From contig CALMZO010000218.1 in assembly GCA_937870825.1 (NCBI GenBank), positions 1 to 64,000 of the forward strand: a stretch of DNA of 64,000 nt, given 5' to 3'. Below the pieces are notes generated by a model. That model was not told where the DNA came from. It searched no databases and saw nothing but the letters and a program-made list of their open reading frames with translations. Within the stretch, counting starts at the first letter, position 1; every line of letters begins with the position of its first letter. The DNA comes from an uncultured Chloroflexota bacterium (GTDB lineage Bacteria > Chloroflexota > Anaerolineae > UBA4142 > SHND01). Made by a program: the position numbers and the translations under genes. Shown one piece after another: positions 3,413 to 61,386 of the stretch.

Positions 3413-4981
3413 AACTCTCTCATATATCGTCAGAAATCTCTCCAGTTCCGGATTGTCCGTCCATTTCACATTCGCGCGTTTGTATTCTGTTACGCTGTCA
3501 AACAAAGTTCCATAAATGATGACATATTTTGGCGCGCGCGTAATGATGTACCCCAAATCAAATTTTTCGTGCCCCGGCGTGCCACTTCCCAAATTCGCGA
3601 CGGGCATTCGTCCGATGTGCAAATCGTTGATGCCAAACATATCAATCGTCGGCAATTCCGAAAAGTACGGCACTTGCCCCGCCGCATCCACCGCAATCCA
3701 CGTCCCCGCCGGCACATTTTGTTTCAACCATTTGCCAGCCGTAATCCGCGCGTGCGTCGCCAACGCCGCGTCAAAACCGCCGATAAAAATTTTGTACTCG
3801 CCGTTGAGCGCGGAAGAGAACCATAGCGCGAGCGCAAGTACCAGTCCCAGTGCGCCTGAAACACAATCAACCAATCTCGAATTTCGAATTTCAAATTTTG
3901 AATTTGCAAAAACTAGTTGCCCTGCAAAAACGATTCCCCCCGCAATCATCAAATACACAAACGCGAGCATCGGCACAAAGAATCGTCCCACCGACCAATC
4001 CCCGCCGACATAAACAATGTACGCGCCGTAAAAGAAAATCACTGCCGCGAAATACGTCAACCCAAAAAACGATTGTTGAATTTCCCTCCGTTCCCTTCTC
4101 TTGCCAAAATAGCGCGCGCTCACCACCACAAGCGCTATCAGCGCCGGCACCAGTATCAGCCACCCCAAATGCACATTCACAAACTGCTGCACATGTTCCC
4201 AACCGCGCAGGATTTGGGCAATCGGTCCGCCGACAGAAACTTTGGCATAAAACGAATTGGGCAAAAGCGAATGATAGTAACGCCAGCGAATCAACCAGTA
4301 CGGCACAAAGACGACGACGAACGACGCGCTGCGAATCAAATCGCCGCGCGTAAAAAATTTACGTTCGTCGAGCAGACGCCACGCGCATTGGTGCGCGGCA
4401 GTGAGTCCAAAGACCGCCGCCGCTTCCGGGCGCGTCATCGCCGCCAGCGCGAAAATAATTCCACTCAACGGTAACCAAGTTCCCTCAGTTCCCTTATTTC
4501 CTTGCTCTCGCACATACAACATCGCGCCCAACGTGAGCAAAAACGCCATCATCGGCGTCTCCAGCCCGCTCACACTCCACAACGCGAACGAACCGTCGGC
4601 GACGAGAAACAACGCCGCCATCCATCCGACGATTGAGGAAAGACCGAGCCATTTCGGAAAACGAATCGTCAGCGCAATTGTGCCGATGCCGAACGCGACG
4701 CCGAGCGCGCTGCTCACGCGTCCCACGTCCCAGCCCGCGCCCACAATCGGCAGCATCATCGCCGTCCACAAAAAATTCGAGAACCCCTCGACCCGTTCAC
4801 TCGGATTGAACGTGAGTCCATACCCGCGCAGCGCGTTCTGCGCGTACACGTACGAGATGTACGCGTCGTCCACCGCATCCCAACCAATTGCGCCATAGAA
4901 CCACAACGCGTGCGCGCAAAACAAAACGCCAAGCGACAAAAAAACAATCGCGGCAATGTTTCGTTTTTGGAAACCATTCAC
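3401..4981 (-). CDS. GT-C family membrane glycosyltransferase (ArnT/AftB-like)
   Basis: This 526-residue protein has about 11 predicted membrane helices and the motif DDAYISYVYAQN near residue 40, followed by GLTFNPSERVEGFSNFLW. That arrangement is typical of polyprenyl-phosphate-sugar-dependent GT-C transferases related to mycobacterial AftB; the acidic pair in the first periplasmic loop is the expected catalytic site. It probably transfers a sugar from a lipid carrier on the outer face of the membrane. The GTG at 4981 is chosen because the 68-codon upstream extension would overlap the lipoprotein gene and because a promoter-like element sits just before it. A heptamer repeat is translated in frame near residues 357-370, between two helices. 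Confidence 0.8.
   Translation of the reverse strand: MNGFQKRNIAAIVFLSLGVLFCAHALWFYGAIGWDAVDDAYISYVYAQNALRGYGLTFNPSERVEGFSNFLWTAMMLPIVGAGWDVGRVSSALGVAFGIGTIALTIRFPKWLGLSSIVGWMAALFLVADGSFALWSVSGLETPMMAFLLTLGAMLYVREQGNKGTEGTWLPLSGIIFALAAMTRPEAAAVFGLTAAHQCAWRLLDERKFFTRGDLIRSASFVVVFVPYWLIRWRYYHSLLPNSFYAKVSVGGPIAQILRGWEHVQQFVNVHLGWLILVPALIALVVVSARYFGKRRERREIQQSFFGLTYFAAVIFFYGAYIVYVGGDWSVGRFFVPMLAFVYLMIAGGIVFAGQLVFANSKFEIRNSRLVDCVSGALGLVLALALWFSSALNGEYKIFIGGFDAALATHARITAGKWLKQNVPAGTWIAVDAAGQVPYFSELPTIDMFGINDLHIGRMPVANLGSGTPGHEKFDLGYIITRAPKYVIIYGTLFDSVTEYKRANVKWTDNPELERFLTIYERVVSH
3872..3910. repeat. Heptamer repeat inside the GT-C coding sequence
   Basis: Units CGAATTT, CGAATTT, CAAATTT, TGAATTT follow one another with 7-base spacing and include a short palindrome. 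They are translated in frame as a polar loop (NSKFEIRNSR) between two hydrophobic segments, so the insertion was tolerated. The units belong to the same sequence family as the repeats at 10.95 kb and 46.2-46.7 kb. Confidence 0.65.
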
Positions 4982-10682: not shown

Positions 10683-10952
10683 ATGGCAAACGAAACCCAA
10701 TCCGCAGCGCCTGCTGCCTCGAATGATTTTGTCTATCGCGCGCGGCAAATTTTGCGCGGACCCGTTCTCGTCGGCGTCATCGCTGCCCTCATTGCAATAG
10801 TCCTTTCACTGTACGGCATGTTGACCAATCCCAACGCGACGCCATTGACCGTTCGCTCGTTTCTCCTCGTCGTCCTCATCGCGGGCGGTTCCTGGGGCTT
10901 GATTGCGTGGGCGATTGCAACGGCGGCAGTGGAAGCGGGAAAGGACGAATGA
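10683..10952 (+). CDS. Small two-helix membrane protein, tandem paralogue
   Basis: This 89-residue protein has an added N-terminal polar segment (about 28 residues, Ala/Ser-rich), then two helices with the shared core GPVLVGVIAALIAIVLSL, TNPNATPLTVRSFLLV and WGLIAWAIA, and a short acidic tail. Its TGA stop is immediately followed by the left arm of a heptamer repeat. Function unknown. It may act as a hetero-oligomer with its neighbour, which is inference only. Confidence 0.72.
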   Translation: MANETQSAAPAASNDFVYRARQILRGPVLVGVIAALIAIVLSLYGMLTNPNATPLTVRSFLLVVLIAGGSWGLIAWAIATAAVEAGKDE

Positions 10953-11040
10953 ATTTTGAATTGCGAATTGCGGATTGCGAATTGCTGAACGCAATGCCTT
11001 TCTCATTTCGCAATTGGCAATTTCAATTTCGCAATTTTTC
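10953..11040. repeat. Heptamer inverted repeat between a TGA stop and an ATG start (no cargo)
   Basis: The left arm begins right after the stop of the small membrane protein (TGAATTTTGAATTGCGAATT...) with units GAATTGC, GAATTGC, GGATTGC, GAATTGC. The right arm holds inverted units (CGCAATT, GGCAATT, TCAATTT, CGCAATT) and ends one to a few bases before the ATG at 11041. The same arms flank the four-helix-bundle gene at 46.2-46.7 kb. Confidence 0.75.
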
Positions 11041-13551: not shown

Positions 13552-14585
13552 CCGTTTCGGCAAGTGACATTGCCGACGCGCTGCGTTGGCTCTGGATTTT
13601 TTGCGGCGTCGTTTGGAGTGTGTATGCGTGGCTCCACCGCGTCGAGTACAGGCGCGCGCTGCTTGGCATCGTCGCGTTGTTTGTACTCGATTGGTTATTG
13701 CACGCGTTCGCCGATTTCGCGGAACAACCCAACTCGAACATCCCTTCCGATTTCGCGTTGTATTCGGTGATGATGCTGCTCGCAGGCATCGTCGGCTTGA
13801 GCGCGACGTGTTTGTACGCGCGTGGGCAAAAAATGAATGTGCTGCATGTGTTGGATGCCGCGTGGTTGTGCGTGCTGGTTGGCGGCATTGGGGGACGCGT
13901 CTATCAAGTGTGGACGAATTGGCACTTTTATTCCGAGAACAAGGATTTGATTTTAGAGTTGTCGCACGGCGGGTTTGGCATGCGCGGCGCGCTCGTGTTT
14001 GGATTCGTCGCGTTGTTTTTATTCGCGTTCATTACAAAAAATTCATTTTGGAAATTCGCGGACGCGTCGGTTATCGGTTTGTCGCTCGCACAAAGCATCG
14101 GGTGGTACGGCGCGGCATTGACGCACGCACACTATGGTATCGCGCTCGACCCTTCAGCAGGTTCAGGGCAAGTCCCCCCCCCCACAGGAATGTTTGCGCC
14201 GCTCGCACAAATCGTTCGCACTTTCGGTTATAATTTCGTTCAAGATTTGCCCGACGCGTACAATCTCATCGCGTTTCGGATTCCCGTGCAAATGATTGCT
14301 GCAATTTTCTTTTTTGCGTTGTTTCTCTTTTTGATTTTACGCGCCCGTGAACATTACGATGGCTCACGTTTCACGTTTTACGTTTTCGCTGCCTCGTTTG
14401 CCAATTTTGTTTTCGGTTTCTGGCGCGGCGACGAAACCCTGATGTGGAACGGCTTGCGCCTAGACCAATGGCTTGATTTGTTTTTTGTCATTATCGGAAT
14501 CGCGCTCGCGTTCGCACGTCACGCGTCCTTGCTCCAACGCGCGCGCGTCAAACATTTCCAGGAGAAAACCTTACAGCACGCATGA
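13548..14585 (+). CDS. Lgt-like polytopic membrane protein lacking the usual catalytic residues
   Basis: This 345-residue protein has about seven membrane helices and the overall pattern of prolipoprotein diacylglyceryl transferase: GGIGGRVYQVWTNW, then GGFGMRGALVFG, then a C-terminal FGFWRGDE...LDQW segment. In genuine Lgt the third-loop motif is GGxSFHGG and a GRxGNF motif follows; here they read GGFGMRGA and IGWYGA, so the His and the first essential Arg are absent. It may be a non-catalytic or retasked relative. The GTG start at 13548 overlaps the upstream stop. A palindrome insertion and a 10-base C tract (14174-14183) lie in a loop near residues 200-213. Confidence 0.6.
   Translation: MTVSASDIADALRWLWIFCGVVWSVYAWLHRVEYRRALLGIVALFVLDWLLHAFADFAEQPNSNIPSDFALYSVMMLLAGIVGLSATCLYARGQKMNVLHVLDAAWLCVLVGGIGGRVYQVWTNWHFYSENKDLILELSHGGFGMRGALVFGFVALFLFAFITKNSFWKFADASVIGLSLAQSIGWYGAALTHAHYGIALDPSAGSGQVPPPTGMFAPLAQIVRTFGYNFVQDLPDAYNLIAFRIPVQMIAAIFFFALFLFLILRAREHYDGSRFTFYVFAASFANFVFGFWRGDETLMWNGLRLDQWLDLFFVIIGIALAFARHASLLQRARVKHFQEKTLQHA
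14149..14171. repeat. REP-like palindrome inserted in the Lgt-like gene
   Basis: The motif CCTTCAGCAGGTTCAGGGCA forms a hairpin with stem CCTT.AGC.../...CAGGG and belongs to the widespread CCTTCGACAGGCTCAGG type. It is read in frame as DPSAGSGQ and sits directly before a 10-base C tract, in a loop between two membrane segments. Confidence 0.5.
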
Positions 14586-29084: not shown

Positions 29085-29152
29085 AAGTTAAAAGTTAAAA
29101 GTCAAAAGCTAAAAGTGATTTTTTAGCTTTTAACTTTTAACTTTTGGCTTGA
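29085..29152. repeat. Heptamer hairpin between the GT2 stop and the carbamoyltransferase start
   Basis: Units AAAAGTT, AAAAGTC, AAAAGCT and their inverted copies (TTTTAGC, TTTTAAC) form a long A/T-rich stem with a short loop near 29116-29119. The TAA of the GT2 gene lies in one arm and the carbamoyltransferase ATG abuts the other. Confidence 0.82.
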
Positions 29153-44265: not shown

Positions 44266-44955
44266 GGATTCCAGGCGCAACTGAAATTTTTGCGCGCCGA
44301 GTTCGATTTCGAGTCCGCTGTAACCGGGAAAGGTGAGGCAGCGCGCGAGTTTCACCAATTGTTCCGCGCTGAAATTTTTCCACGCGGCATTTTGTTTCAA
44401 TGCCAAAAATTCGCGGCGCGCGTGGTACGTGCCGCTGCCCTGCTGTGCAAACGCGCGCAGGGTTTCGCCGCGCGTCAATTTCGCCCACGCGTCCATGAGC
44501 AAAATTTTTTCGGCGTCGCGCACGCGCGCATAAAGCGAACCGCCCGTATCCGTTTCCGTCCAAGGCACTTGAATCTGTGCGACGATATTGCCCTCATCAA
44601 TCCCCGCGTTGATTTCGTGAAAGGTCGCGCCGGCGGGGGTATTTTCCCACAGCGCCCAAAACACGGGATAAAAGCCGCGCCCGTACGGAAGATAACCGGG
44701 ATGAATGTTGTAAATTTTCTGATAGCGCGCGATGAAACGCGGTTTCAAGATGCGCGGATAGTGTACGGACAACGCGACCGGTGAAACCGCCGCATCCACA
44801 TCGTTCGCGTTTTCCAAAAAGACCTGTGTGCTGTATGCACGCGCGCGCTGCGCCATTTCGTCATTGACGACAAAAATCGTTCCCACGTGCTCGCGTGCGA
44901 TACGGTCCAAAAACCACCGCGCGAGTTCGCCGTCGAGCAGCAAATCCATTTTCAT
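44260..44955 (-). CDS. Nucleotide-sugar N-formyltransferase
   Basis: This 231-residue protein has the formyltransferase motif IYNIHPGYLPYGRGFYPVFW near residue 85 (catalytic Asn and His) and the catalytic Asp in HEINAGIDEGNIVAQ. The order N, H, D is that of GART/Fmt enzymes that use N10-formyltetrahydrofolate. The short length, without the Fmt C-terminal OB domain, fits sugar formyltransferases such as VioF or FdtF. It probably formylates the amino sugar made by the next gene's product. The start overlaps the wzt stop (ATGA). Confidence 0.88.
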   Translation of the reverse strand: MKMDLLLDGELARWFLDRIAREHVGTIFVVNDEMAQRARAYSTQVFLENANDVDAAVSPVALSVHYPRILKPRFIARYQKIYNIHPGYLPYGRGFYPVFWALWENTPAGATFHEINAGIDEGNIVAQIQVPWTETDTGGSLYARVRDAEKILLMDAWAKLTRGETLRAFAQQGSGTYHARREFLALKQNAAWKNFSAEQLVKLARCLTFPGYSGLEIELGAQKFQLRLESL

Positions 44956-46205
44956 GCTTCGCGCGTCACCGTATAGTCCAACGCGACGATGCCGCGCAGC
45001 ATCGCGTGATACGGCACGAAATCGCCCGCGCGGACCGACGCAATCAGGTTCAAGTTGATGACATCGTTCACCAAACGCGTTGCATCATCACTGCGAATCC
45101 AAAACGCGACGCGGTATTCGCCTTCCACCAGCGGCAACGCGTCCAGCGACGCGCACAGTTTCAAAGTGTCCTGCCCATTCGTGCGTAACGTTTCGCCCGC
45201 GTGGCGCAAATCAATCAACGCGACGCGGCGATTCAACGAATCGAAAATGAGCGCTGCCATTTCGTCAATCCGCATCGCGCGCGCCGATTGCAGTTCCACA
45301 TGCAGCGCGACGGCTTCACCCGAAACGACCGGATTGGGCGAAAAGGCAAAACGCAGCACACGGGTGCGCGGCGTCAATTCCAACGGATGGTCCAGATCAT
45401 TTTGCATCGGCCCGCGATGTTCCGCGAGATACGCGGCGACCTGCTCCGGTGCCGTTCCCATGCCCATCAGCTGCCCATGTCCCAAACGAATGGCGCGCGT
45501 ACACAAGGCTTGCACCGCCGTCAAATCATGGCTGACGAACAACACGGTGCGCCCGGCTTTGGCGACGTCGCTCATTTTGCCGAGACATTTTTTTTGAAAC
45601 GCCGCGTCGCCGACAGCCAACACCTCGTCCACCACCAGAATTTCGGGGTCGAGATGCGCGGCGACGGCGAACCCCAAACGCATGAACATTCCACTCGAAT
45701 AATGTTTGACGGGGGTATCAATAAATTCTTTGATTTCTGCAAAGGCAACAATCTCGTCAAACTTGTGCGCAATCTCGGCGCGCTTCATGCCCAAAATGGC
45801 GCCGGTTAAAAAGATATTTTCGCGCCCCGTCAACTCGCTGTGAAAACCCGTCCCCACTTCCAAGAGCGCGCCGACGCGTCCAAACAGTTCGACGCGTCCC
45901 GTCGTCGGTTTGGTGATGCGCGACAAAATTTTGAGTAGCGTACTTTTGCCCGCGCCGTTGCGGCCGATGATGCCGACGGCTTCGCCGTGCGGAATTTCAA
46001 ACGAAACGTCGCGCAACGCCCAAAAATTTTCTTCGGACGGCGCGCCGTTGCCATTTCCGTTCGCGCGCAGGAACGAGGCAACGCGCTGCGCGGGACGTTT
46101 CACGGACGCGATGATTTGGTCGCCGAGCAAACGGCGCGCTTGCTGGCGCGCGCCGATGCGATATTTTTTCCCCAAATGCGAAACGCGTAATGCAATCTTG
46201 GACAT
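44952..46205 (-). CDS. Polysaccharide ABC exporter ATPase (Wzt-like)
   Basis: This 417-residue protein has Walker A IIGRNGAGKST near residue 105, signature HYSSGMFMRLGFAVA, and Walker B ILVVDEVLAVGDAAF, followed from about residue 275 by a C-terminal beta-sandwich (VLRFAFSPNPVVSGEAVALH) typical of Wzt_C carbohydrate-binding domains. Together with Wzm it exports finished polysaccharide across the inner membrane. The C-domain usually recognises a terminal modification of the chain. Wzt is separated from Wzm by the four-helix-bundle gene element. Confidence 0.95.
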   Translation of the reverse strand: MSKIALRVSHLGKKYRIGARQQARRLLGDQIIASVKRPAQRVASFLRANGNGNGAPSEENFWALRDVSFEIPHGEAVGIIGRNGAGKSTLLKILSRITKPTTGRVELFGRVGALLEVGTGFHSELTGRENIFLTGAILGMKRAEIAHKFDEIVAFAEIKEFIDTPVKHYSSGMFMRLGFAVAAHLDPEILVVDEVLAVGDAAFQKKCLGKMSDVAKAGRTVLFVSHDLTAVQALCTRAIRLGHGQLMGMGTAPEQVAAYLAEHRGPMQNDLDHPLELTPRTRVLRFAFSPNPVVSGEAVALHVELQSARAMRIDEMAALIFDSLNRRVALIDLRHAGETLRTNGQDTLKLCASLDALPLVEGEYRVAFWIRSDDATRLVNDVINLNLIASVRAGDFVPYHAMLRGIVALDYTVTREA

Positions 46206-46693
46206 TGGAAATTTGAAATTGCGAATTGCGAAAGGAAAATACGGGTCGTCGTCAAGATGAGCGTTTGGAATTTGTGCTAGAGTCATTCCGCCGCGAACGC
46301 GCCGTTTTGCCAATGCTCGTAAAGATGGCAAGCAATTCCGTTGCTTCTTGCAATAGCGACGCATCCATTACCAGCCCTTTGATATCGGCTTCGTTCAAAA
46401 GCTCAAGCCAGTACTGTGATTCGGATGCCTCTTTTTCACACAGCGCAATTTTGTGAATGAAATCGTCGTAGGATTCAGCGCGATTCGCTTCCCGGTAATT
46501 CGCGCCAACGGATGTGCCTGACTTGAGTAGTTGCCTCCCCAAAACATCACTCGCGCGACCGGCAGGCAATTGATTCACAAATTTTACAACGCGCAAGGCA
46601 AAGACTTTGGTGCGTTTTTCCAAATCGTTTTTGTTCATTGCCTCTTCCTTTGTAAAAAATCAATTCACAATTCGCAATTCGCAATTTCAAATT
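46206..46693. mobile_element. Four-helix-bundle gene flanked by perfect 23-bp inverted heptamer repeats
   Basis: Perfect inverted repeats lie at 46210-46232 and 46671-46693; their units are GAAATTG, CGAATTG and CGAA. They enclose a complete four-helix-bundle gene. The outer end of one arm shares one base with the TGA stop of wzm, and the other ends four bases before the ATG of wzt, so the element fits exactly into the wzm-wzt junction. The same arms with no gene between them occupy the junction at 10953-11040. No transposase is present. Target-site duplication could not be seen. Confidence 0.6.
46252..46638 (-). CDS. Four-helix-bundle protein (S23/intervening-sequence-protein family)
   Basis: This 128-residue helical protein matches the family known from 23S rRNA intervening sequences and related to the Avd accessory protein of diversity-generating retroelements: FALRVVKFVNQLPAG, LLKSGTSVGANYREA and KIALCEKEASESQYWLELL. 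It has a good ribosome site (AAGGAAGAGG) of its own. Function in free-standing copies is unknown. It interrupts the normally adjacent wzm-wzt pair and carries perfect inverted repeats on both sides. Confidence 0.9.
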   Translation of the reverse strand: MNKNDLEKRTKVFALRVVKFVNQLPAGRASDVLGRQLLKSGTSVGANYREANRAESYDDFIHKIALCEKEASESQYWLELLNEADIKGLVMDASLLQEATELLAIFTSIGKTARSRRNDSSTNSKRSS

Positions 46694-47547
46694 CACACAA
46701 TATCCGCAAACGTATCTTGCATCCGTTGGAAATACACCAAGCCGCTCACCAACACAGCCGATATAATGACGATGGAAATTAGAATCAGGACACCGGGTTC
46801 CCAACTCGTCCCCAACAATGCCCAGCGAAAACCTTCAATCACGCCTACGAGCGGATTCAAGCCGTACAGCCACTGCCACTGCGCGGGAATCAGTGTGCTG
46901 GAATACGCGACAGGCGACGCGTAGAGCCACACTTGGACAAGAAAGGGAATGACGTAATTGACATCGCGATAGCGCACATTCAACGCCGACAGCCACAACC
47001 CCATCGCAAACGCGGCAAGCAGCGCGAGCAGCAGCAAGAACGGCAGAATCAAAACGCGCGGCGTGAGTCCGATTCCATAAAACAGCATCATGCCAAGCAA
47101 AATCAAAAACGCGAATGCGAAATCAACGAGCGCGCCCAACGTTGCCGATAGCGGAATAATGACACGCGGAAAATACACTTTGCTCAACAAATTGGAACTC
47201 GAAACGAGACTCGTCGTCGCGCGCGTCAACGCGCCCGAAAAAAAATTCCACGGCAGCAGCGCGGTAAAAGTAAAAATCGGATAGGGGATGCCGTCGGAAG
47301 GAAGTTTGGCGAGTTGTCCAAACACAATCGAAAAAATCACCATCGCCGTCAACGGCTGCACAATCGCCCACGCCGCGCCGAGAAGGGTTTGACGATAGCG
47401 CACTTTGATATCGCGCCACGTGAGAAACATCAACAGCTCGCGATAGTCCCACACTTCGCGCAGATTCAACTGCAAGAGAGGAGAGTCGGGTACGATGACG
47501 AGATGGGGCTGCGCGGGGGTTTCGAGGCGGGTGGATTCGAGGTTCAT
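46693..47547 (-). CDS. Polysaccharide ABC exporter permease (Wzm-like)
   Basis: This 284-residue protein has six predicted membrane helices and the ABC-2 permease signature FLTWRDIKVRYRQTLLGAAW near residue 40, with LNVRYRDVNYVIPFLVQVWL and SPVAYSSTLIP later. It forms the export channel with Wzt. The ATG at 47547 overlaps the asparagine synthase stop (ATGA). Its TGA stop overlaps the outer end of the inverted repeat flanking the four-helix gene. Confidence 0.95.
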   Translation of the reverse strand: MNLESTRLETPAQPHLVIVPDSPLLQLNLREVWDYRELLMFLTWRDIKVRYRQTLLGAAWAIVQPLTAMVIFSIVFGQLAKLPSDGIPYPIFTFTALLPWNFFSGALTRATTSLVSSSNLLSKVYFPRVIIPLSATLGALVDFAFAFLILLGMMLFYGIGLTPRVLILPFLLLLALLAAFAMGLWLSALNVRYRDVNYVIPFLVQVWLYASPVAYSSTLIPAQWQWLYGLNPLVGVIEGFRWALLGTSWEPGVLILISIVIISAVLVSGLVYFQRMQDTFADIV

Positions 47548-49460
47548 CTGTTTTCTTGCAGCCATGCGTTCAAGACATACAGCGACCACGCGCGCGACCA
47601 GTGCGTTCTGCCGCTTTCAAACGATTCGATGACGCGCGAGACGGCGCGCGGTTCGAGAATGTTTTGCGCGTCGAACGGATAGTGCGCGAAATAGTTTTTC
47701 AAATCGCCGCGCAGCCAGCGCGCAAAGGGAAAGGTGAAACCCATTTTTGTTTTGCGTTCGCGGACGATGGCGGGCAAATCGTTGCCCATCGCTTTTAGCA
47801 AAAGTGATTTCGGCGCGCCGCCGTTCCCTCGACCTTGCTCGGGACGAGTTTGTTTTGCCGCGTCGGGCAACGTGAGAATTTTTTCGACGAGCCGATGGTC
47901 GAGCAATGGCACACGCACTTCGAGCGAATGTGCCATGCTCATCGCGTCGGTGTCGCGCAAAAGTTGATTGAGCGTGTAGGTGGCGAGTTCGGCGCGCGAA
48001 GTCCAGGACATGGACGCGGGCCGATTCGCCAAAAAGCGGCTTGAGACGACGGACGACGTGTCGAGCGCGCGCGATTCAATGTACGCGACGGGGTCGAAAT
48101 TTTTTGCCGTGTTCCAGATTTCGGGATTCACGAGCGCGCGCGTTTCATACGGCGTCAACGCGCCGCGATAGCAAAAGTACGCCGACGCGGGCGATGCGGA
48201 GGTTGCCAGCGCGTGTTGCACTTTGGCGCTGCGCGTGGTGAGGGGAAAGGGAAGGCGCGCGGCAACAGACGAGAACGGAATTTGTTGAACGCGGCATAAT
48301 CTCCGAAACAATTTGGGCGCGTCATAGAACGTGGGATAACCGCCAAACAGTTCGTCGCCGCCCAAACCCGAAAGTGCGACGGTGAGTCCCGCTTGCCGCG
48401 CGGTTTGCGAAACAAAGTAACTGTTCACCCCGTCAAGACTCGGCTGGTCGAGCGCCCACAGGATGCGCGGCATCTCGTTCAACAGGTCGCGCGCCGTGAT
48501 GACTCGCTCAAAATGTTCCGCGCCAATCTGCTCCGCGACGGCGCGCGCAAACGGCGCTTCGCTAAACTCCGCTTCTTCAAACACCATCGAACATGTTCGC
48601 AGGGTGCCATTCGTCGCCTCGCGCATCAGCGTCACCACTGCGCTGGAATCCATACCGCCGCTCAAGAACGCGCCAAGCGGCACATCACTCACCAATTGCG
48701 AACGCACCGCATCAAGCAACGCGGCGCGCGTTTCGGCGACAACATCGCGCGGGACCGTCCGTTCATGCGTCGGCATCGTCCAATAACGCGTCGCGCGCGT
48801 TTCCATTGCGTCCAACGCGTAGTGCAGCATCGTCGCGGGTTCGAGCGCGTGAATGTTTTGAAAAATCGTGCGCGGTGTAGGCACTGCGCCAAATTGCAAA
48901 TACGCCACGAGCGCGGTGGCATCAATTTCGTTCGAGACGAGCTGCGAGGCGCGTAATCCTTTTAGTTCTGACGCGAAAACGAGACCGCTGTCCGTGTGCG
49001 CGTAATACAACGGCTTGACGCCGAGTTGGTCACGCGCGAGGAGAACGCATTCACGACGCGCATCATAAAACGCGAGCGCGAAAATGCCGCGCAAGCGCGC
49101 GAGGATGTTTTCGCCCCATGCTTCGTAGCCGCGCAAAATGACTTCGGTGTCACTCGTCGAGCGAAACGCGCAGCCCGCGCGTTCGAGTTCCGCGCGCAAT
49201 TCATCGGCATTGTAAATTTCGCCGTTGTACGTCAGCGCAAGCTGCGCGTCGGCGGAAACCATCGGCATGTGTCCGAGCGGCGAGAGGTCGCGAATCGCGA
49301 GCCGCCGATTGACAAAGGCAACGCGACCATTGCGCGCGAGAAACGTTCCCGCGTCATCGGGTCCGCGATGCGTCATTGCGTCGCGCATGAGATTCACGCG
49401 GGCGCACAAAGCCGTGAGGGTACGTGAAGGTTTGAGAACGATTCCGGCGATACCGCACAT
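47544..49460 (-). CDS. asnB: Asparagine synthase (glutamine-hydrolysing) homologue
   Basis: This 638-residue protein has the N-terminal nucleophile Cys2 (MCGIAGIV), the class II glutamine amidotransferase domain (THRGPDD; AIRDLSPLGHMPM), and the C-terminal synthetase domain with PP-loop GAFLSGGMDSSAV and ALSGLGGDELFGGYPTFY. In polysaccharide clusters such homologues often amidate sugar carboxyl groups (compare WbpS) rather than make asparagine. The start at MCG removes 35 codons of non-conserved upstream sequence. Confidence 0.92.
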   Translation of the reverse strand: MCGIAGIVLKPSRTLTALCARVNLMRDAMTHRGPDDAGTFLARNGRVAFVNRRLAIRDLSPLGHMPMVSADAQLALTYNGEIYNADELRAELERAGCAFRSTSDTEVILRGYEAWGENILARLRGIFALAFYDARRECVLLARDQLGVKPLYYAHTDSGLVFASELKGLRASQLVSNEIDATALVAYLQFGAVPTPRTIFQNIHALEPATMLHYALDAMETRATRYWTMPTHERTVPRDVVAETRAALLDAVRSQLVSDVPLGAFLSGGMDSSAVVTLMREATNGTLRTCSMVFEEAEFSEAPFARAVAEQIGAEHFERVITARDLLNEMPRILWALDQPSLDGVNSYFVSQTARQAGLTVALSGLGGDELFGGYPTFYDAPKLFRRLCRVQQIPFSSVAARLPFPLTTRSAKVQHALATSASPASAYFCYRGALTPYETRALVNPEIWNTAKNFDPVAYIESRALDTSSVVSSRFLANRPASMSWTSRAELATYTLNQLLRDTDAMSMAHSLEVRVPLLDHRLVEKILTLPDAAKQTRPEQGRGNGGAPKSLLLKAMGNDLPAIVRERKTKMGFTFPFARWLRGDLKNYFAHYPFDAQNILEPRAVSRVIESFESGRTHWSRAWSLYVLNAWLQENR

Positions 49461-60087: not shown

Positions 60088-60729
60088 TCACGGCGCGAGA
60101 CGTTCAATCTTCCAAACATTGCTCACACCGCGCGTATAACGCAACCTATCGTGCATGCGATTTTCGCGCCCTTGCCAGAATTCAAACACATCAGGAATGA
60201 CGCGATAGCCGCCCCACTGTGCGGGACGCAAAACTTGATTCGGAAATTTCGCGTCGAGTTCTGCCGCGCGCGTTTCTAAAAATTCGCGGTTCGGAATGAC
60301 CTGGCTTTGTGGAGATGCCGCCGCGCTCAATTGCGCGCCGCGCGGACGTGACGAAAAATACGCGTCGGATTCTTGCGCACTCACGCGTTCGACGCGTCCC
60401 TCGACGCGAATTTGGCGATGCAGCGGCTGCCAAAAGAAAACGAGCGCGGCGAACGGATTGTCCTTGAGTTCTTTGGCTTTGCGACTCGCGTAATTGGTAA
60501 AAAAAATCAAGCCGCGTTCGTCCACACCGCGCAAAAGCAAAACGCGCGCGGACGGTTTCGCATCCAGCGCGGCGGTGGCGACAACCATCGCGTTCGGTTC
60601 GGGCAAATTCTCCGCGATGGCGAGCTCCAGCCACTGCTGAAACATGACAAACGGATTCGGGTCCGCGTCGCGTTCGTCGAGCGCGCCGCGCGTGTATTGG
60701 ATGCGGAGTTCTGTGATAGAGTTGGTCAT
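60088..60729 (-). CDS. pdxH: Pyridoxamine 5'-phosphate oxidase
   Basis: This 213-residue protein shows AMVVATAALDAKPSARVLLL with FTNYASRKAKELKDNPFAAL, the FMN-binding pattern of PdxH, and ends QGRENRMHDRLRYTR. It makes pyridoxal phosphate, the cofactor of the two aminotransferases nearby. The ATG is formed by a heptamer repeat that runs back to the preceding gene's stop codon. It interrupts the WbpB/D/E-like gene set. Confidence 0.95.
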   Translation of the reverse strand: MTNSITELRIQYTRGALDERDADPNPFVMFQQWLELAIAENLPEPNAMVVATAALDAKPSARVLLLRGVDERGLIFFTNYASRKAKELKDNPFAALVFFWQPLHRQIRVEGRVERVSAQESDAYFSSRPRGAQLSAAASPQSQVIPNREFLETRAAELDAKFPNQVLRPAQWGGYRVIPDVFEFWQGRENRMHDRLRYTRGVSNVWKIERLAP

Positions 60730-60781
60730 TCGTTATTCGTTATTTGTTCTTTGTTCTTTGTTATTCGTTGTTCGTCATTCG
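60727..60781. repeat. Heptamer array supplying a stop and a start codon
   Basis: Read on the minus strand, seven-base units GACGAAT, GACGAAC, AACGAAT, AACAAAG, AACAAAG, AACAAAT, AACGAAT, AACGAAT run in perfect 7-base register. The first unit contains the TGA of the acyltransferase (gaaTGAc) and the last runs into the ATG of pdxH (cgaATGacc). No inverted arm is present. Confidence 0.85.
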
Positions 60782-61386
60782 TCGTATTCCTGAATCGCGT
60801 CAATCCTCTTGATAACACGCGCGGGGTTGCCAATGACTACCGCACCATCAGGCACATCACGCGTGACCACCGCGCCCGCGCCAACCAGCGCGTTTTCGCC
60901 AATCACGACGCCCGGCAACAATGTCGCGTTCGCGCCGATTTTCGCGCCGCGTTTGATGTGCGCGCCGCGCAAATTTTCTTTTGCCGTTTTCGATTGCGGA
61001 TAGCGCGCGTTGGTGACGACGACGTTCGGACCCAACCAACAATTTTCTTCGAGAATGGAAAATTCGGGAACAAAAACGTTCGAGTGCAGCCGCGCGTTGT
61101 TTCCAATTTTCACATGATGCTCGACGATGGTGTGCGAACCGATGCTGACGTTATTGCCGATTTCGTTTGCTTCGCGAAGCAAAACGCCGTGTCCCGTTTG
61201 AAAATCATCGCCAATCACGTTGCCCGCGTAAATGACCGTGTGCGAACGAATCACCGCGCGCGCGCCGATGCGTGTTTCGAGTTCACCCGATTTTTTCCCG
61301 CGCGGCGGTTCGCCGATGACGACGAACGCGCCAATGTTTGCATCATCAGGCAGATGGACTTGGGGATGGATTTCAACAGAACTCAT
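60775..61386 (-). CDS. UDP-amino-sugar N-acetyltransferase with left-handed beta-helix (WbpD-like)
   Basis: This 203-residue hexapeptide-repeat protein has [60 protein letters not shown] and [20 protein letters not shown], the standard coil and terminal loop of WbpD-like N-acetyltransferases acting on UDP-2-acetamido-3-amino sugars. The final residues (QEYDE) and TGA overlap a heptamer repeat. Its start overlaps the Gfo/Idh stop by 4 bases. Confidence 0.88.

Follow-up and report, generated by a model that had tools for sequence, protein, structure and literature searches.

A free-standing S23 gene and its inverted short-unit arrays as a small, probably mobile element at operon junctions

We find that a free-standing S23 gene of an uncultured Chloroflexota bacterium, together with the two inverted arrays of short repeat units around it, probably constitutes one small mobile element of ~430–490 bp, inserted in the sense orientation at a stop/start junction within an operon. 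The data support a kinship with the S23-bearing intervening sequence (IVS) of 23S rRNA, but with an element that lives in mRNA operons. This reading is based on the joint presence or absence of gene and arrays at four plasmid sites, a repeat unit that follows the S23 clade, purifying selection on the gene, and a gene-free hairpin in one record where relatives have the full element. No transposition event was observed, and mobility is read from sequence comparison. An earlier note on this DNA had suspected an element and was right in kind, in that the gene and its arrays behave as one unit.

The window, the whole 64,000-nucleotide stretch of DNA that was analysed, belongs to the source genome (G000). 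Within it, the element spans 46206..46693 on the minus strand, from the stop codon of wzm to the start codon of wzt. The upstream neighbour wzm (46693..47589, minus strand) encodes an ABC-2 type transporter membrane protein (PF01061, E 2.4e-25), and the downstream neighbour wzt (44952..46205, minus strand) an ABC transporter ATPase (PF00005, E 3e-21); the Pfam scan of wzt was run on 44952–46208, and its start was placed by tblastn to the same-genus genome G005. The S23 gene (46252..46638, minus strand; 128 aa) matched the 23S_rRNA_IVP four-helix-bundle family over the cut-off (PF05635, E 6.7e-15). The arm upstream of S23 (46671..46693, minus strand) is an inverted heptamer array with the unit GAATTGC and a periodic stretch at 46661–46686, and the downstream arm (46210..46232, minus strand) is its reverse complement at 23 of 23 nt (100%). 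Perfect 23-bp inverted repeats around one complete S23-type gene, as the earlier note had described them, were thus recovered, and the junction coordinates it gave agree with ours: position 46693 is the final base of the wzm TGA as well as a base of the upstream arm, and 4 bases lie between the end of the downstream arm and the wzt ATG at 46205, a start backed by the comparison with G005. Between the arms, S23 was the sole family match and filled most of the space, and the element encodes no transposase of its own. The arms are not a product of chance, since 1500 random intervals of the same size (360–400 nt) from 254 kb of the source genome reached an inverted flank score of at most 15; two of them scored at least 14, one being the window element itself. 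In a predicted RNA fold of the element the arms pair and the S23 ORF is looped out (z −2.5; 1 of 100 shuffles was as good).

The same bracketing recurs at S23 loci at large. There were 16 PF05635 matches in the source genome, 14 of them over the cut-off, and the family was present in 35 of 40 genomes (the source genome and its relatives; at most 25 matches in one) and in none of 14 control genomes. Among the other S23 genes of the source genome, L009 has a perfect 23-bp GGTGATTG arm and L010 a perfect 24-bp ATTTTCG arm, while some of the 16 matches have no inverted short-unit arrays. We scored arms as the best ungapped inverted match (+1/−2) between ~220 nt on each side of the gene. From 217 S23 loci, 7 repeat or near-identical copies and 4 loci with short flanks were removed, leaving 206 scored loci (210 distinct): 120 from the source genome and its relatives, 80 from named genomes and 6 from cyanobacterial plasmid elements. 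L014 and L255, which are one S23 gene, were counted once, and one flank count leaves out L014 and L015, for which it had no HMM match, and four short-flank loci. A single scan with the window-type S23 gave at least 590 candidates, of which the best 80 make up the named set; its record titles include Chloroflexi, Verrucomicrobia, Deltaproteobacteria, Bacteroidota, Acidobacteria, Planctomycetes, Omnitrophota, Armatimonadetes, Magasanikbacteria and cyanobacteria. An inverted flanking match of at least 16 was found at 135 of the 206 distinct loci (81/120 in the source genome and relatives, 49/80 in named genomes, 5/6 in plasmid elements) and one of at least 13 at 162; with copies included, the counts were 141/213 and 169/213. 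The remaining 44 of the 206 scored below 13 and have no clear arms.

Several controls were set against this score. Among other genes of the source genome, from which one ORF overlapping the window element was left out, 1 of 193 scored at least 16 and 6 of 193 at least 13. Left and right flanks taken from different loci reached 16 in 12 of 400 pairings for the named set and in 0.8% of 395 for the relatives, the same S23 loci shifted by 900 nt reached 13 in 0 of 148 cases, and random intervals reached 16 in 0 of 1500. Direct rather than inverted repeats of at least 16 were seen at 8 of the 80 named loci and at 16.5% of 79 loci of relatives. A search of the host genome and its relatives for S23 genes flanked by inverted heptamers, as advised in the earlier note, thus found them, and the repeats do not fall at random with respect to S23 genes (135/206 S23 loci against 1/193 control genes). 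The order of unit variants was mirrored between the arms more than the shuffled mean at 69 of 115 loci, less at 21 and equally at 25, but only 3 loci were individually at ≤5%. The sole control gene at or above 16 is the TraG-like gene of L118 (score 23). Non-S23 genes lie within inverted heptamers at L118:9179–10981 (this TraG-like gene) and L133:2998–3704 (a weak LmeA-like match); possibly these are other cargo, or each reflects two separate insertions.

The repeat unit differs between loci and measures 7, 8 or 9–10 nt. The longest units (CTAAAGTGC) were found at L143, L144, L153, L171, L172, L177, L184 and L205, for the most part in records with Desulfo- or Deltaproteobacteria in the title. 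The earlier note had proposed one element able to carry an S23 gene; gene and arrays do form one unit and gene-free hairpins exist, but the arrays are not one repeat family. Unit length follows the protein. On a tree of 70 S23 proteins of relatives (9 of 79 loci were dropped for an unclear period, short flanks or internal stops), the 7/8 label required 7 changes against 21.7 when shuffled, and 0 of 500 shuffles were as low. A larger tree, with 152 distinct S23 proteins (100, 42 and 10 with periods of 7, 8 and 9; 58 of 210 loci dropped on the same grounds), required 14 changes against 46.2, with 0 of 200 shuffles as low. These trees are poorly resolved, with few columns, and near-copies contribute; including duplicates gave the same result. 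Arms also matched more often between genomes as protein identity rose, from 38 of 7043 pairs below 30% identity to 115/636 at 50–60%, 81/173 at 60–70% and 58/89 at 70% or above (148 loci, different genomes, plasmids left out; the pairs are not independent). Since arm matching tracks protein identity, the arrays travel with the gene and are possibly kept matched to it.

Copies of a unit were more numerous where its cognate S23 had been sampled. Counts of GATAGTGC were 643, 156, 53, 145 and 100 in the five genomes with a sampled cognate S23 against 0–211 in 25 others (one-sided p 9e-4), and counts of GAATTGC were 71 and 109 in two such genomes against 0–228 in 28 others (p 0.02); in both tests S23 sampling is incomplete, relatedness is uncorrected, and the counts include overlapping matches as well as the arms. 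The exceptions are G006, with 228 GAATTGC matches, and G008, with 211 GATAGTGC matches, neither of which has a sampled S23 of that unit under this incomplete sampling.

Occupied and empty versions of the same site were found on cyanobacterial plasmids. The flanks of five plasmid S23 loci were searched, and at four of the five we found empty relatives, arrays and gene being present or absent together; the empty plasmid sites that were read contain no arrays. Site A is occupied in Trichormus variabilis plasmid C (L221; identical in strain 0441) and in Scytonema (L222), and empty in plasmids of Aulosira, Nostoc linckia, Tolypothrix PCC 7601 and N. carneum, which are ~97.5% identical. The insert is a discrete one of 428 nt (14 fewer against Scytonema) that ends at a 5-bp GTAAT repeat, and L221 and L222 differ by exactly two heptamers (14 nt). 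At the same site, Nostoc C052 (L299) carries an array and a degraded S23 start, and Brasilonema (L300) carries a gene-free hairpin of the same repeat whose right-hand end resembles the Trichormus end. Site A is thus known in full, decaying, gene-free and empty form. A gene-free counterpart of an occupied site, which the earlier note had placed within the window, does exist, though elsewhere, in L300 against L221.

Site B is occupied in the Nostoc plasmids L302, L311 and L301 and empty in L308, L309, L310 and L312, and site C is occupied in Aulosira plasmid 2 (L223) and empty in L304–L306. At site C the element sits within the 3' end of the upstream gene, the tail of which remains beyond the element. 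At site D, an element lies between cas10 and cmr3 in Picosynechococcus PCC 7003 (L303:1453–1882), and the 92% identical PCC 7002 is empty. The exact ends of the element are less clear at sites B–D and in G005 than at site A. Records outside this comparison include H65 and H67 for site A and H134, H138 and H139 for site B, of which H134 lists an S23. Sites A, B and C hold the same S23 element (nucleotide identity ~78–83% by blast) in different surroundings, and similarity ends approximately at the array ends. As to the direction of change, gain is clear only at site C, where the element interrupts the 3' end of a gene, and likely at site D; at site A and at wzm–wzt, precise loss is as possible as gain, and occupied outgroups are known for both (L299 and L300 for site A, L136 for wzm–wzt). 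For the Planktothrix flanks, all 3 matching records were occupied and no empty site was found; array copy number varies between these strains by whole units. In Calothrix (L216/L217), the same S23 with the same close neighbours is found on two plasmids. The Nostoc N6 plasmid also has another, broken copy of S23 next to the first, separated from it by remnants of arrays (L301:1542–2105), which is possibly a nested insertion.

The wzm–wzt site was compared in the same manner. That wzm and wzt normally adjoin, as had been claimed, is seen in the same-genus G005, in which the orthologous junction is empty and the two genes overlap as ATGA (wzm 83% and wzt 72% identical to those of the window). When the window S23 protein was used as a query on 30 wzm-like loci, the only match was at the window's own locus, and most of these loci have no S23 at the junction; related genomes do not consistently carry the gene there. 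An S23 profile run on the same loci found in L231 (G004) an S23 gene (L061) off the junction, ~1.2 kb upstream of wzm, and in L233 (G013) a 46-codon S23-like fragment ~50 nt past the wzm stop, with wzt ~1.2 kb beyond the fragment. Arrays of other heptamers without a gene lie past the wzm stop in L230 (G018) and L231. These arrays and the L233 fragment suggest that the wzm–wzt junction is a repeatedly used site. L136, from an uncultured Anaerolineales bacterium, holds the closest S23 relative among the best 80 of at least 590 named candidates (65% identical), and this gene too sits at a wzm–wzt junction with a like kind of unit. Because L136 occupies the same junction even though identity to the window's genes is only 55% for its wzm and 52% for its wzt, either an ancient occupation was followed by loss in G005 or there was more than one insertion.

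Gene-free members of the heptamer family occur in the window and beyond. A hairpin of the GAATTGC family lies between a stop codon and the following ATG at a different site (10950..11037, no strand assigned; fold z −3.0), with imperfect inverted arms (77% over 31 nt). The earlier note had placed a gene-free arrangement here, at 10953–11040, and had taken it and the element for an empty/occupied pair of one non-autonomous element. The hairpin of the same heptamer family is real, but we rejected it as the empty partner of the wzm–wzt site because other genes flank it on both sides, and its arms are imperfect; the empty wzm–wzt site is that of G005. A second gene-free hairpin, with AAAGTTA/AAAGCTA units (29085..29145, no strand assigned), resembles the arms around S23 in L008. 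Single arrays of other heptamers are found in the window at 577–596, 3873–3905, 14364–14386 and 60728–60783. GAATTGC hairpins without a gene occur in the source genome, and GAATTGCGAATTGC gave 71 matches in it against 2 for the reversed control pattern (at most one mismatch, overlapping matches counted). Across 254 kb, period 7 yielded 27 arrays, two of them runs of N, and the other periods tested (4 to 13) at most 4. In 251 kb we counted 26 arrays of period 7 or 8, half of which (13/26) have an inverted partner within 160 nt. Fifteen of the 26 lie mostly outside called ORFs, though called ORFs make up 87.6% of this sequence; these calls are crude and count even the arms of the window element as coding. 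The numerous gene-free arrays would be non-autonomous or decayed copies.

Placement relative to neighbouring genes was biased. By longest-ORF calls at 210 loci, both neighbours were co-directional with S23 at 140, both opposite at 4 and mixed at 38, with one side uncalled at 28; antisense insertions between co-directional genes are thus nearly missing, although ordinary operon genes also lean co-directional. Of the 141 elements (copies included) whose arms reach at least 16, 116 lie downstream of a same-strand ORF that ends no more than 150 nt away, at a median distance of 6 nt from stop codon to left arm, and the median element length is 492 nt. The median dN/dS of S23 was ~0.10 (54 of 86 pairs with usable dS, 32 saturated pairs being left out). 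By this measure the S23 protein is under purifying selection, and it therefore matters.

An AlphaFold2 model of the window S23 predicts a four-helix bundle (pLDDT 92.5). The best PDB match by Foldseek was 2rld (S23 family, five chains), followed by Xcc0516 (2gsc) and Avd; for Avd of diversity-generating retroelements (DGRs), TMt was 0.73 with 8ub7_E and ~0.70 with 4dwl (E ~0.05–0.2). On this model the window S23 would fold like Avd. The window protein had no match to the bAvd Pfam family at E 0.01, and three plasmid S23 proteins match it below its cut-off. One of the 16 matches of the source genome, L016 on contig C249, exceeds the bAvd cut-off (71.6 bits against 40) and lies ~0.9 kb from a reverse transcriptase, with no arms (score 8); it is probably a DGR accessory gene outside the S23 elements. 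The retroelement hint of the earlier note therefore holds for the fold and for L016, but L016 is armless and a reverse transcriptase was not found in every S23-bearing genome. Reverse transcriptase was found in 24 of 40 genomes and in 0 of 5 relatives without S23; the two matches in the source genome are both on contigs other than that of the window, and none lies beside the window element, whose neighbours are wzm and wzt. It was not found in G013, G015, G016 and G018 (8, 14, 8 and 9 S23 matches), three of which are less than 90% complete. Y1 transposase was found in 33 of 40 genomes, with two matches in the source genome, and was not found in G007 and G011 (4 and 11 S23 matches). Both kinds of enzyme for which the earlier note had advised a search in trans have matches in the source genome, but neither was found in every S23-bearing genome; presence and absence do not support either as an obligate partner, absence from draft genomes being weak evidence.

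We propose that the S23 protein would recognise the array of its own element in the form of ssDNA or RNA, and would guide an enzyme provided in trans in copying or insertion; our best guess is that S23 supplies the specificity and borrows the enzyme. Within the transcript, the two arms would pair and the S23 ORF would loop out, leaving the upstream stop beside the downstream start, which may be how the host operon tolerates the insertion. In a broader form that we put forward tentatively, as a possibility, S23 elements would be a class of mobile DNA across many bacterial phyla with a sole gene that is neither a recombinase nor a polymerase, in which an Avd-like multimer reads a private array of 7-, 8- or 9-nt units, directs copying of the bracketed DNA and is the hitherto unrecognised source of the short-unit arrays and hairpins in intergenic DNA of cyanobacteria, Xanthomonas, Geobacter and Beggiatoaceae. 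Alternatively, S23 could be a sequence-specific regulator, translational or transcriptional, with its own arrays autoregulatory, the dispersed start-codon arrays its regulon and mobility incidental. Strong purifying selection and a unit that follows the protein would fit such a role, as would arms that abut stop and start codons and the base composition of the arm upstream of S23, which on the coding strand has more G than C at 112 of 135 loci and less at 16. Regulatory roles for heptamer arrays have been proposed in the parts of PMC4679880 and PMC2700814 that we draw on, the first naming candidate regulators other than S23. We nevertheless regard this explanation as rather doubtful: the source genome holds several S23 genes with different units and single genomes hold up to 25 S23 matches, whole units are absent from near-identical plasmids, a degraded copy stands at an orthologous site, and the bracketing of the gene by inverted arrays in unrelated operons is left unexplained.

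The remaining alternatives concern the machinery and the origin of the arms. If S23 played the part of Avd and a host reverse transcriptase acting in trans made cDNA of the hairpin RNA for insertion, the fold match to Avd (4dwl) and to DGR complexes (8ub7/8ube), the sub-threshold bAvd matches of the three plasmid proteins, the sense-orientation bias of 140 to 4, and the distribution of the enzyme (two matches in the source genome, one ~0.9 kb from L016, and none in the five S23-less relatives) would be accounted for; with no reverse transcriptase detected in the four S23-bearing genomes named above (three of them incomplete) or beside the window element, and with the linked L016 devoid of arms, we consider this unlikely. 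A Y1 (IS200/IS605-like) transposase moving the hairpins in trans, as proposed for REPINs/RAYTs, appears quite improbable. It is consistent with hairpin-ended elements, dispersed gene-free hairpins and the two Y1 matches of the source genome, but the bracketed gene is S23 rather than a transposase, and the enzyme went undetected in S23-bearing G007 and G011. REPs, moreover, are palindromes and not tandem heptamer arrays. Finally, the heptamer arrays could be ordinary slippage repeats that formed first, with S23 landing in them by chance, or the arms could have arisen by local slippage. Copy number does vary by whole units between strains (14 nt between L221 and L222, and in Planktothrix), but the empty sites that were read show no arrays, other genes are rarely bracketed (1/193 at ≥16) and the unit follows the protein between genomes, which makes this explanation scarcely credible. 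The reading of gene and arrays as one small mobile element is the one that we retain.

This reading would offer one cause for two puzzles, the role of free-standing S23 (four helix bundle) proteins and the origin of bacterial intergenic heptamer arrays, and makes both testable by simple binding and mobility assays. It also makes the rRNA intervening sequences part of a far larger group of elements. S23 genes in CRISPR (L303), DISARM/BREX-type (L218–L220) and surface-polysaccharide operons may be passengers; the elements at L218–L220 lie inside defence operons, after drmD and before pglX or MmeI. Eighteen S23 genes have been counted in cas loci (PMC3936711, seen in part), and a figure of a CRISPR survey lists the S23 family among its domains (PMC10910872, likewise in part); site D suggests that S23 genes in cas loci could be insertions. 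Our search of the open-access literature turned up no paper that links free-standing S23 genes with short-unit arrays or with mobility, subscription papers being outside the scope of the search.

Among known systems, the closest in anatomy is the 23S rRNA IVS. That of Coxiella is described, in the portion of PMC4990558 consulted, as 428 nt long, its terminal inverted repeats pairing into a 28-bp stem and tandem heptamers preceding the S23 ORF, and the same portion records earlier proposals that IVSs are mobile or are remnants of transposition. The present elements share a length of ~430 nt, an S23 ORF and terminal inverted repeats closing a predicted stem. Unlike an IVS, the window element lies between wzm and wzt and not in 23S rRNA, and L001–L016 had no Rfam match at the gathering threshold; in addition, a genome may have as many as 25 PF05635 matches and more than one kind of unit, and gene-free derivatives exist. 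REPIN/RAYT systems comprise inverted-repeat hairpins in intergenic DNA and a cognate gene with the repeat on either side (PMC3116915, in the part available to us). The source genome likewise has dispersed inverted-repeat hairpins of one family, but the bracketed gene is S23 and not a Y1 transposase, the arrays are tandem with 7-, 8- or 9-nt units, and many gene copies with different units occur per genome. PF05635 and Avd are homologous according to the part of PMC10053308 consulted, and the window gene resembles a DGR component in its Avd fold but has no adjoining reverse transcriptase. Compared with an integron gene cassette, a single bracketed gene is found here, within operons. As with an insertion sequence or DNA transposon, there is a discrete insertion in a short target repeat at site A, and empty sites are known, but the element does not encode its own transposase. 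Tandem intergenic heptamers have been described as TAACTGA (PMC4679880), GGGAATC (PMC4692102) and the Geobacter MTYCTGA class 3 (PMC2700814), again from partial views of these papers; the arrays here are tandem too, and GGGAATC and MTYCTGA are partly paired as inverted sites (PMC4692102, PMC2700814). The portions of the three papers that we consulted read their heptamers as regulatory or structural, the abstract of PMC4679880 reports no evident mechanism of horizontal transmission, and term counts in PMC4679880 and PMC4692102 gave 0 for S23 and 0 for four helix. Taken together, the evidence supports a widespread mobile unit with IVS-like anatomy that lies between operon genes, the arrays of which S23 would recognise and the insertion of which would be tolerated through looping out in RNA.
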